A DNA stretch of 16,497 bases from a bacterium (lineage in GTDB: Bacteria; ARS69), in NCBI GenBank assembly GCA_025774865.1, contig JALGZO010000760.1, forward strand, positions 1 to 16,497. The letters are read 5' to 3'. Position numbers and translations under genes: made by a program. Shown piece by piece: positions 2,943-5,817 of the stretch; position 1 is the first letter of the stretch, and every line of letters starts with the position of its first letter. The notes under the pieces were generated by a model, which was not told the origin of the DNA, did not search any database, and worked only from the letters and a program-made list of their open reading frames with translations.

Positions 2943-3749
2943 ATGATCCGGAACGTGCGGGCATACGCCCTCACTGTCGTGTGCATGGTCGCACCCCTCG
3001 CGGTGACGTCGGCGAATGCCGTCCCGCACCTCCAGAAAACAGCAGCCGTCGCCGAGGAGGTCGCCCTGTTCCGAGTGGGTGGCGCAAACTACAGTTACAC
3101 GCTCGAGCAGCTGTCGTTTTCCACGCAGATGCAGCCCGTGATCGACGGCACCGCTCCGTACTTCTTCTTCCTCTTGACGAATACCGGCGACGACGACACC
3201 TACCACATGGTCGTCTCGGACATCGACGATCCCCTGAACTGGTTCGGACAGGTCTGCATCGGTTTTCTTTGCTTTCCGGACAGCCTGGATCATCCGTTGA
3301 CGAACGCGGATTCCGATTCCGTCGGGGTCAACGTGGTCCCCTTTACGGATGGCGTCGATACGTTCACGTTCACGCTCAGCTCGCTGGGGAATCCTGCGCT
3401 CGTGAGCGTCTACGAACTGACGCTGTACGCCGGGAGCACGGTCGTGGACGTTCGGCCGATCTCCGGCGTCGACAGTTTCGAGCTTCGGCAGAACAGTCCC
3501 AATCCCGTGCGTGCCGCGACGTCGATTCAGTTCGCGCTGCCACGGGAAGAGGCGGTCTCGCTCCGGATCTATGACGTGTCCGGCCGGATCGTGCGTACGT
3601 TGTCGGAAGGCTCCTGGCCGGCCGGTTCGCACCGGGTAGCCTGGGACGGTAAGTCCGACACCGGGGGCTCGGTACCCACCGGAGTCTACTTCTATCGCCT
3701 GGTCACGCCGGAAGGCGAACTGGCCAGGAGAATGACGGTGATTCGATGA
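2943..3749 (+). CDS. Secreted protein with C-terminal FlgD-Ig-like/T9SS-type sorting domain
   Basis: A 268-residue protein. The N-terminus is a clear signal peptide with an A-x-A-type site (SANA, cleavage after residue 26). Residues 27-165 form a beta-rich region of unrecognised family, containing a 'LLTNTGDDDTYHM' segment like those in domains describing protein or matrix attachment. Residues 179-268 are a FlgD-Ig-like sorting domain: LRQNSPNP, a 'L-R-I-Y-D-V-S-G-R' strand, 'VAWDGK', 'PTGVYFYRL' and the basic end MTVIR. In FCB-type bacteria such domains direct type IX secretion and surface attachment. No secretion machinery lies in this window. A good ribosome binding site (GGAGGG, 2929-2934) precedes the ATG. 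It sits between the two thioredoxin-like genes in the same operon-like run, so it may be exported with them. Its function is otherwise unknown. Confidence 0.8.
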   Translation: MIRNVRAYALTVVCMVAPLAVTSANAVPHLQKTAAVAEEVALFRVGGANYSYTLEQLSFSTQMQPVIDGTAPYFFFLLTNTGDDDTYHMVVSDIDDPLNWFGQVCIGFLCFPDSLDHPLTNADSDSVGVNVVPFTDGVDTFTFTLSSLGNPALVSVYELTLYAGSTVVDVRPISGVDSFELRQNSPNPVRAATSIQFALPREEAVSLRIYDVSGRIVRTLSEGSWPAGSHRVAWDGKSDTGGSVPTGVYFYRLVTPEGELARRMTVIR

Positions 3750-3764
3750 TCATCCAGTCCTCAT

Positions 3765-3776
3765 CGGGCGTGCCCG
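3765..3776 (+). repeat. Short inverted repeat just upstream of the selenoprotein RBS
   Basis: CGGGC and GCCCG, separated by two bases, form a small perfect inverted repeat in the 43-base gap before the selenoprotein gene; T3764 and A3777 extend it by one pair. It ends three bases before the AAGGGAG ribosome binding site. It could be a weak regulatory hairpin or chance in GC-rich DNA. Confidence 0.25.
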
Positions 3777-3778
3777 AG

Positions 3779-3785
3779 AAGGGAG
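3779..3785 (+). promoter_or_regulatory. Ribosome binding site deciding the GTG start of the selenoprotein gene
   Basis: AAGGGAG lies seven bases upstream of GTG 3793. This is good Shine-Dalgarno placement and supports translation starting there, 44 codons ahead of the in-frame TGA. No comparable site precedes the later in-frame TTG 3955. Confidence 0.7.
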
Positions 3786-3792
3786 TCAAACT

Positions 3793-5817
3793 GTGACGTC
3801 GACCAAGCCCCTGATCGGAGCAGTCGGTCTCGCCGCCCTCACGGGTGCGCTCCTGATGCCAGTCGTTTCGCAGGCAACTCTCGTCGATCGGACGGTATTC
3901 GCCGAAGAGTTCGGCTTCATCACGTGACAGTTTTGCCCCGACGCCCGTGCGGCGTTGAAGCAGTTGGAGCAGAACTACGGAACGGACAACATCGTCCACG
4001 TCGACTGGCACGTCTCGCAGACCTTCAACAACCCCGACGCCACCGCCCTGGCGAATTACTACGGCGTGGGGGGCGTTCCCCACGTCCTGTTCGACGGCGG
4101 GAACGATGTGATCGGCGGTGGGACGGACATGTACCCATTCTACGAGCCGATCTATCTGAGCGAGAAGGCGCAGCAGTCGAAGCTCATGATGGACGCGCAC
4201 GTCTTCTTCCCGGACGGCGGTCCCACGGGAAACGTGACGATCGATCTCGAGGTGGCACCGGGTGAGCTGATCGGTGCGGCGCACACGATCAAGGTGATCG
4301 TCTACGAGGACCAGGTCTTCGCCGCGGGCAAGTCCTGGAAGGGCATCGGGCGATTCATCGCGCTGCAGACGCCGATGACGATCGTCAACGGCGGAGAGAC
4401 CCAAACGGTGACGGTGCCCTTCACGATGGACCCATGGAGCCAGGTCCAGAATCCGGCGAACTGTCGCGCGATCGCGTACGTACAACGGAACAGTAACCAG
4501 GTGATCATCCAGTCCCAGCTTTGCTCGTTCACGTACGACGTTGACGTCACCGACCTCGAGGCGGTCGTGACGAGCGTCGAGACCGGTCAGACCGACGAGA
4601 TCGACACCCAGGTCGAGTACACCGGCGCCGTGAACGACGATGTCGTGATCACGCTCGACAAATCCACCCTGCCGGCGGGCTGGGACGCGGAGATCGTCTG
4701 GAACGCGGGCACCTATCCGACCGGCCTGACGATCACGAACATGTCTCCCGGCCAGATCGAGCCGTACCAGGTGCGGATCATCCCGAGCGCGACCCCGGGG
4801 GCCGGTAACGTGAGCGTCTCCACGGAGCCGATTTCAGATCCGCTCCGCAGGGAAGAGCACACGTACTACATGTTCGCGGGCACTCCGGCGATCCTCTTCG
4901 TCGACGACGACCGCGGGGCTTCGACGGAGTCCGCCTTCGAGCAGGCTGTTCTCGACGCGGGTTACTTCTCGATCACGCACGACTTCTTGGCGGAGGGCTC
5001 GCCCACAGCGGCCGTCATGGAGAGTTTCGACGTCGTCATCTGGACCACGGGTGAGCTGCAGACCGGGACCCTCGGAAACGTCGCAGAGGGCAACCTGGGG
5101 CTGTACCTGGACGCAGGAGGATCTCTCTTCCTGACCAGCCAGGGATTCCTGAACCACCGTGGCGCGAACTCGTTCGCGCAGACGTACCTGGGCGTGTCGA
5201 GCTTCCTTCAGGATCAGCAGGCACCGTCGGCGACCGGCGTGGCCTCCGATCCGATCGGAGACGGGCTGAACCTGACCCTGTCTCCGCCGTTCCCCGATTT
5301 CGCCGACGAAATCACCGGGACGACCGGGGGAGCGGTCAGCTGGTTGGATGGAACGTCCAATCCGATCGGCGTTCGCCTGGATACGGGGGGTCACAAGACC
5401 GTGTTCATGAGCGCGGCGTTCGACGGGATCTCGACCGTGGCGCCGGATCCGAACAACCAAGCGATCGTGATGCAGCGGATCATCCAGTGGTTGCTCCCGA
5501 CCGCGACGGATGTGCGTCCGACGGCCGGACCCGCTCCGGTGTCGCTCGCTCTCGCGCAGAACACGCCGAATCCGTTCCGCGGGGTCACGTCATTGCGGTT
5601 CGCGGTTCCCAGTGAGGGCCCGGTGAGCCTCGCGGTTTACAATATCGCCGGCCGGAAGGTGGCGGATCTCGTCAACAAGCCGCTCGACGCCGGTGCCTAC
5701 ACCGTCTCCTGGGACGGGCTCGATCGGAGCGGCAGTCGCGTCGCCTCGGGTGTGTACCTCTATCGCCTGAGCGCGTCGGGTCAATCCCTCTCGAAGGAAA
5801 TGGTCTTCGTGAGGTAG
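3793..5817 (+). CDS. Predicted selenoprotein: secreted thioredoxin-like (Omp28-like) protein with UxxC motif and sorting domain
   Basis: A frame of 674 residues if TGA 3925-3927 is read as selenocysteine (U45). The GTG start has a strong ribosome binding site (AAGGGAG). Residues 1-28 form a signal peptide ending in VSQA. A thioredoxin-like domain follows (about 34-125): strand 'TVFAEEFGFIT', then U45-Q-F-C48, a helix 'PDARAALKQLEQNYG', and a cis-Pro strand 'GGVPHVLFDGG' (Pro96). The TGA falls exactly on the first Cys of CxxC, as in the neighbouring lipoprotein (TCPNCP). Beta-rich linker regions follow, then a ThuA/GATase-like segment (about 365-545: 'ILFVDDDRG', 'DVVIWTTGEL', 'YLDAGGSLFLTSQG'), and a FlgD-Ig-like sorting domain (582-674: 'AQNTPNPF', 'VSWDGL', 'SGVYLYRL'). 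It is probably an exported thiol oxidoreductase with a Sec nucleophile. The selenium-insertion genes are not in the window. The alternative is a Cys-to-stop mutation or base error; the hairpin after the TGA and the exact position argue against that. A routine gene caller would start near TTG 3955 and lose the signal peptide and active site. Confidence 0.82.
3925..3927 (+). other. In-frame TGA predicted to encode selenocysteine (U45)
   Basis: This single in-frame stop has intact, protein-like coding sequence on both sides: signal peptide and first thioredoxin strand before, helix with the resolving cysteine after. The context is F-I-T-U-Q-F-C-P, a U-x-x-C redox motif. Genes at 80, 1614, 2943, 5947 and 11728 all end at TGA, so TGA is a normal stop in this genome and the reading must be context-dependent. 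Confidence 0.8.
3933..3963 (+). promoter_or_regulatory. Candidate bacterial SECIS element (hairpin downstream of TGA)
   Basis: The mRNA can fold right after the TGA. The upper stem has seven pairs (3939-3945 with 3951-3957, one of them G-U) and closes the five-base loop CGUGC (3946-3950). Below a 2x2 internal loop (CC/AA) there are four more pairs (3933-3936 with 3960-3963, one G-U). The loop starts 18 bases after the TGA and has G at its second position. Known bacterial SECIS elements have an apical loop about 16-37 bases from the UGA with a G among the first loop bases, which SelB recognises. The pairing is worked out by hand; no folding energy was computed. Confidence 0.7.

Follow-up and report, generated by a model that had tools for sequence, protein, structure and literature searches.

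The closest described relatives of the protein considered here are the Omp28-related selenoproteins. They correspond to GOS_C, which was first reported in a 2008 ocean survey, with 74 selenocysteine (Sec) sequences (PMC2398784), and a review (2026) gives NCBIfam model NF045500 for this hypothetical UxxC protein (PMC13188914). Within the phylum of a Neomarinimicrobiota genome, 24 of the 245 genomes contained members of NF045500 scoring above its cut-off; most of these true members were frames of 367-440 aa and several adjoined redoxin and DUF6029 genes. Exported proteins of the same domain type, known as Cys forms, are covered by Pfam PF11551 (Omp28) and by NF033782 (Omp28 family lipoprotein). 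HBP35 of P. gingivalis (PDB 5y1a) combines a thioredoxin motif with a C-terminal domain and has a surface form. The U-x-x-C redox motif is also displayed by Sec-containing thioredoxin and thiol:disulfide interchange proteins, which belong to a different domain family and for which we know of no sorting tail or DUF6029 cassette.

The stretch of DNA analysed here (the window, 16,497 nucleotides of contig JALGZO010000760.1) contained on its forward strand a gene of 674 codons (3793-5817) with a single in-frame TGA. NF045500, named "Omp28-related selenoprotein", was its best NCBIfam match, with a score of 60 bits (E 2.5e-16), or 55 bits when all six frames were searched, under the cut-off of 200. 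Both have Sec (putative in the window protein) at the aligned UxxC position, an Omp28/thioredoxin-like exported domain and a sorting tail. The window protein differed from NF045500 by its low score, by its placement in a separate clade and by an extra middle region of ~325 residues, which it shared with a clade of the Krumholzibacteriota phylum but not with most NF045500 members. It was also under the cut-offs of PF11551 (18.1 of 34.9) and NF033782 (36.2 of 150), whose known forms carry Cys where the window protein would carry Sec. HBP35 likewise has Cys instead of Sec and is devoid of the middle region; its likeness to the window protein came from a weak sequence match (5y1a, E 0.017) and does not imply orthology. 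Literature searches on Omp28 or type IX secretion with selenoproteins, on Krumholzibacteriota selenoproteins and on Omp28 with TlpA retrieved nothing relevant.

In a quick tree with weak deep branches (supports are SH-aLRT values), the window clade (96) was placed outside the NF045500 clade (97). Its nearest neighbours were Cys proteins from the same phylum (88); this group was joined next by the Sec clade of the Krumholzibacteriota phylum (91), and at least eight Sec/Cys changes were counted on this tree. Because of its score, its separate clade and its different architecture, the window protein is, as judged from its sequence, a separate and distantly related form of the known Omp28-related selenoprotein kind. 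The initial annotation, made from the DNA alone, had considered the family as undescribed. This does not hold entirely, NF045500/GOS_C being a known relative, while the position under the cut-off, the separate clade and the distinct architecture speak in its favor.

Two further groups of Sec-type Omp28-like proteins were encountered. The first (L143-L156, L175) comprised 14 proteins from the Krumholzibacteriota phylum, which formed their own clade and mostly displayed a U-P-Y-C-P motif; their frames were mostly 720-790 aa from stop to stop and mostly 840-920 in the genome search. The second (L209-L214, in the phylum of G096) was a clade of six genes with UGPC, UPYC and similar motifs, the N-terminal part of which was mostly beyond the reach of the NF045500 model.

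The in-frame TGA and its column in homologues

The gene starts with GTG and ends with TAG. Codon 45 (TGA, 3925-3927) is the sole internal stop of this frame and is followed by Q-F-C, giving a U-Q-F-C motif of which the second redox residue is Cys48 (TGC, 3934-3936). A ribosome-binding-site-like GAGAAGGGAG (3776-3785) precedes the GTG at 3793, and residues 1-28 (MTSTKPLIGAVGLAALTGALLMPVVSQA, 3793-3876) constitute a predicted signal peptide, recognized by inspection; homologues display a hydrophobic leader too. An in-frame TGA located after a ribosome-binding site and a signal peptide, as initially described, was thus confirmed. The thioredoxin helix and cis-Pro proposed downstream are consistent with the alignment, P96 being invariant in 10 out of 10 sequences.

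Among 92 distinct Omp28-like genes, column 45 consisted of 70 TGA and 22 Cys codons (TGC 18, TGT 4) and nothing else. This is the mix of Cys and TGA that the initial annotation had named as the sign of a selenoprotein. When all three stops were read through in 93 homologous genes, the column displayed 69 TGA, 22 Cys and two other codons, both of the latter in sequences whose CxxC site was absent or misaligned. Neither TAA nor TAG (zero each) was encountered at this column among the 93 genes, none of which contained a further in-frame stop within codons -15 to +150 around it, and the second Cys of U/C-x-x-C was Cys in 93 out of 93. Taken together, these counts at and around the column exclude a chance origin of the TGA.

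All five genomes examined from the window's phylum contained a homologue with a single TGA, located at the same column. The window's own genome harbored a second homologue, a paralogue also with TGA at this place, and three more distant proteins of the phylum displayed Cys. In the Krumholzibacteriota phylum (that of G005), 39 of 80 genomes gave matches, mostly with one TGA. Since relatives in many bacteria share this in-frame TGA at an identical position, a selenoprotein is very probable. The window's genome also contained a third paralogue (L027 and L029, on the short contig G000:C155); its N-terminal part is in a different frame and it is possibly a pseudogene or an assembly error.

Selenocysteine machinery and a SECIS-like hairpin

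The window's genome is a metagenome-assembled genome of 4.7 Mb in 785 contigs (92.65 % complete, 8.3 % contaminated). The initial annotation had suggested looking there for selA, selB and selC (tRNA-Sec), and all three were found: tRNA-Sec with 72.7 bits (likewise called tRNA-SeC by ARAGORN), SelB with 339.7 bits, or 367.1 with its neighbour (cut-off 242), and SelA with 543 bits (cut-off 268). SelB and tRNA-Sec were above cut-off in all six gene-bearing genomes examined, and SelA was detected in four of the six, the remaining two being 82 % and 67 % complete. Relative G001 (100 % complete, 1 % contaminated) displayed tRNA-Sec, SelA, SelB and the gene altogether. In the Krumholzibacteriota-type phylum, SelB was above cut-off in 73 out of 80 genomes and was hence not discriminating for Sec genes. 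The selenoprotein reading is supported by the Cys/TGA column, by tRNA-Sec, SelA and SelB in the genome and by a TGA common to the phylum relatives; the gene almost certainly encodes a selenoprotein with Sec at codon 45.

A putative bacterial SECIS-like hairpin was located at 3940-3956, with a 6-bp stem and the loop CGUGC (3946-3950). The bacterial SECIS model places a hairpin just 3' of the UGA, 16-37 nt after it, with G in the first two loop positions; the loop sequence and the distance of 18 nt observed here agree with it. The hairpin core corresponds to a conserved GCC CGT GCG GCG. Within codons +5 to +11 of the six window-clade genes, 61 of 64 comparisons between identical residues showed identical synonymous codons (95 %), versus 52 % elsewhere in the gene, and none of 395 seven-codon windows was as conserved. 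No excess of synonymous-codon conservation was found after column 45 in Cys homologues. The stem paired in 94 % of cells versus 31-58 % when slid. Covariation was weak: double-sided pair changes came from one sequence only and were equalled by shuffles in 45 out of 500 cases. By folding, the SECIS model fitted 63 of 70 TGA genes versus 15 of 22 Cys genes. The folding energy of the 45 nt after the TGA was rejected as a SECIS test, Cys genes folding equally well, and synonymous-codon conservation was therefore used. An Rfam search of the window gave no match.

Domain architecture, export and gene cassette

Residues 31-246 (3883-4530) form the Omp28/thioredoxin-like domain with the putative Sec, as indicated by NF045500 and by a homologue profile; the Pfam matches to Thioredoxin_2 and Omp28 were weak and under cut-off. 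AlphaFold2 models built from two and four alignment rows were both poor (pLDDT 41 and 43), so that the fold assignment relies on weak sequence matches. The middle region (residues 250-575, 4540-5517) is conserved with the Sec proteins of the window's phylum and of the Krumholzibacteriota phylum and corresponds to no known family. It had initially been taken for a GATase/ThuA-like segment. A search of Pfam with E up to 10 gave no match except a marginal DUF7393, and no invariant Cys was found in this region among five aligned sequences. A class I glutamine amidotransferase or ThuA assignment, judged by a family match and a catalytic Cys, was therefore rejected as unsupported.

The C-terminal part (residues 585-674, 5545-5814) displays a T9SS type A sorting domain (TIGR04183, 31.7 over 23) and a FlgD Ig-like domain (PF13860, 35.5 over 27), and the sorting domain announced by the initial annotation is thus real. 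The genome also encoded SprA (530.7 bits with neighbours, cut-off 200) and PorU (515.4 bits, cut-off 420). Both marks of a type IX cargo, a sorting domain above cut-off and the machinery in the same genome, were consequently present, which supports the surface-directed export proposed earlier. The window protein is probably exported by type IX secretion, and display at the surface or release would be the natural, likely outcome. SprA-like proteins were observed in all 11 genomes tested (G000-G005, G046, G047, G086, G220, G222), in ten of them above cut-off, and type IX secretion is therefore widespread in these little-studied phyla.

Three genes precede the candidate selenoprotein gene on the same strand. 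The first (80-1573) encodes a DUF6029 protein (PF19494, 44.6 over 27), a predicted outer-membrane barrel; DUF6029 has been tied to outer-membrane beta-barrels by HHpred (PMC9603273). The second (1605-2876) encodes an Omp28-like lipoprotein with a PEGA domain (PF08308, 33.5 over 20.8; NF045500 30.7 bits, under cut-off) and constitutes the Cys paralogue of the cassette. As had been noticed earlier, its C-P-N-C lies at the matching place, its first Cys (TGC at 2220) aligning to column 45. The third (2943-3749) encodes a 268-aa secreted protein with a sorting domain (PF13860, 44.7 bits). The lipoprotein and a sorting-domain protein occupied the same positions in five out of five genomes. The order in the window's phylum was redoxin, DUF6029 protein, CxxC Omp28-like lipoprotein, sorting-domain protein and Sec protein; the window, whose contig opens with the DUF6029 gene, does not reach the redoxin position. 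The Sec gene is followed by a glycosyltransferase gene in the window and, in G004, by an ORF resembling it.

The redoxin-DUF6029-Omp28 order was also encountered in G046, where redoxin and DUF6029 are fused in one protein, in G047, G048 and G086, and in several genomes of the Neomarinimicrobiota phylum. A Cys version of the cassette was displayed by G088, G089, G094 and G095; tRNA-Sec was missing, at the threshold used, in three of these four (G088, G089, G094). The Sec genes of the Krumholzibacteriota phylum were not all included in a cassette, others having none nearby and some being located on short contigs. No published description of the redoxin-DUF6029-Omp28 cassette was found in the literature, and this association of a redoxin, a DUF6029 barrel and an Omp28-like thiol/selenol protein, recurring in several phyla, is new here. 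Genome G086 (a Gemmatimonadetes record) displayed tandem Omp28-like genes, Sec and Cys forms mixed, after the redoxin and DUF6029 genes (L158, L178, L216). Locus L217 (13679-14608) encodes a 309-aa redoxin/TSP_3 protein whose frame contains a TGA at codon 76; it may be a selenoprotein as well.

Proposed role, alternatives and significance

As a whole, an explanation combining Sec decoding, type IX export and surface redox activity with cassette partners is considered very likely. SelB with Sec-tRNA would decode the UGA at codon 45, aided by the hairpin just downstream; the decoding, its conservation and the RNA hairpin are supported by the sequences compared. Passage over the inner membrane would be directed by the signal peptide. 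The C-terminal sorting domain, supported in the same manner as are the type IX secretion genes, would then target the protein to type IX secretion, so that it is displayed on the cell surface or released. From there on we infer: at the surface, Sec45-Gln-Phe-Cys48 would act as a selenol/thiol oxidoreductase site of the Omp28/thioredoxin-like kind, and electrons would flow between the protein and its partners. Probable partners are the members of the cassette, itself supported by sequence, namely the adjoining CxxC lipoprotein, the DUF6029 outer-membrane barrel and the redoxin located upstream in relatives. A surface selenol/thiol redox role with these partners is the likeliest one, at about even chances. 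A wider proposal, clearly more tentative, is that the three kinds of cassette protein, the Omp28-like one in its Sec or Cys form, may constitute an undescribed trans-envelope redox system across several phyla of the FCB group. Reducing power would be handed over by the redoxin in the periplasm, at or through the outer-membrane barrel, to type IX surface selenol/thiol proteins in which Sec and Cys were exchanged repeatedly.

If the TGA were a genuine stop, or a mutation that disables the gene, the locus would be a pseudogene or would consist of two ORFs, the long part starting from TTG 3955. TGA is a normal stop in the window's genome (e.g. at the end of ORF 2943-3749) and a TTG-initiated ORF of 620 aa does exist downstream. 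However, six genes from five genomes share this TGA, and the protein is conserved both before and after it; the gene displays no other disabling change, and initiation at the downstream TTG would leave out both signal peptide and active site. Conservation of the TGA position and of the flanking protein refutes this reading, the probability of which is practically nil. Decoding of the TGA as another residue, by a change of genetic code or by suppressor read-through, would in principle also open the frame, but is very improbable as TGA terminates neighbouring genes, is limited to the Cys column within codons -15 to +150 and coexists with tRNA-Sec, SelA and SelB.

It is possible, if rather doubtful, that the protein is an ordinary member of NF045500 (GOS_C) whose only novelty is its divergence. 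The best NCBIfam match, the aligned Sec, the UxxC and the sorting tail all point that way, against which stand the 60 bits for a cut-off of 200, the separately supported clades, the nearest groups of the window clade including Cys proteins, and the extra middle region. Another use of the U-x-x-C could be surface ligand binding (capture of metal, heme, selenium or mercury) rather than disulfide exchange. P. gingivalis HBP35, with its thioredoxin motif and C-terminal domain, indeed binds hemin besides its thioredoxin activity (PMC2907840); binding is nevertheless unlikely for the window protein, which has the UxxC/CxxC pair of classical redox sites, with an invariant second Cys, and whose relatives adjoin redoxin genes in many genomes.

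If the preferred reading of a type IX-exported selenoprotein is true, a wide range of related selenoproteins escapes NF045500 at its present cut-off, and gene calling with table 11 would cut such proteins short, since TGA reads as a stop. It would also mean that Sec occurs in proteins with a type IX sorting signal, which would therefore probably be located on or outside the cell surface. Surface Sec chemistry could then serve extracellular redox, metal or thiol metabolism, and the redoxin-DUF6029-Omp28 cassette offers a shared, testable context for three poorly understood protein families.
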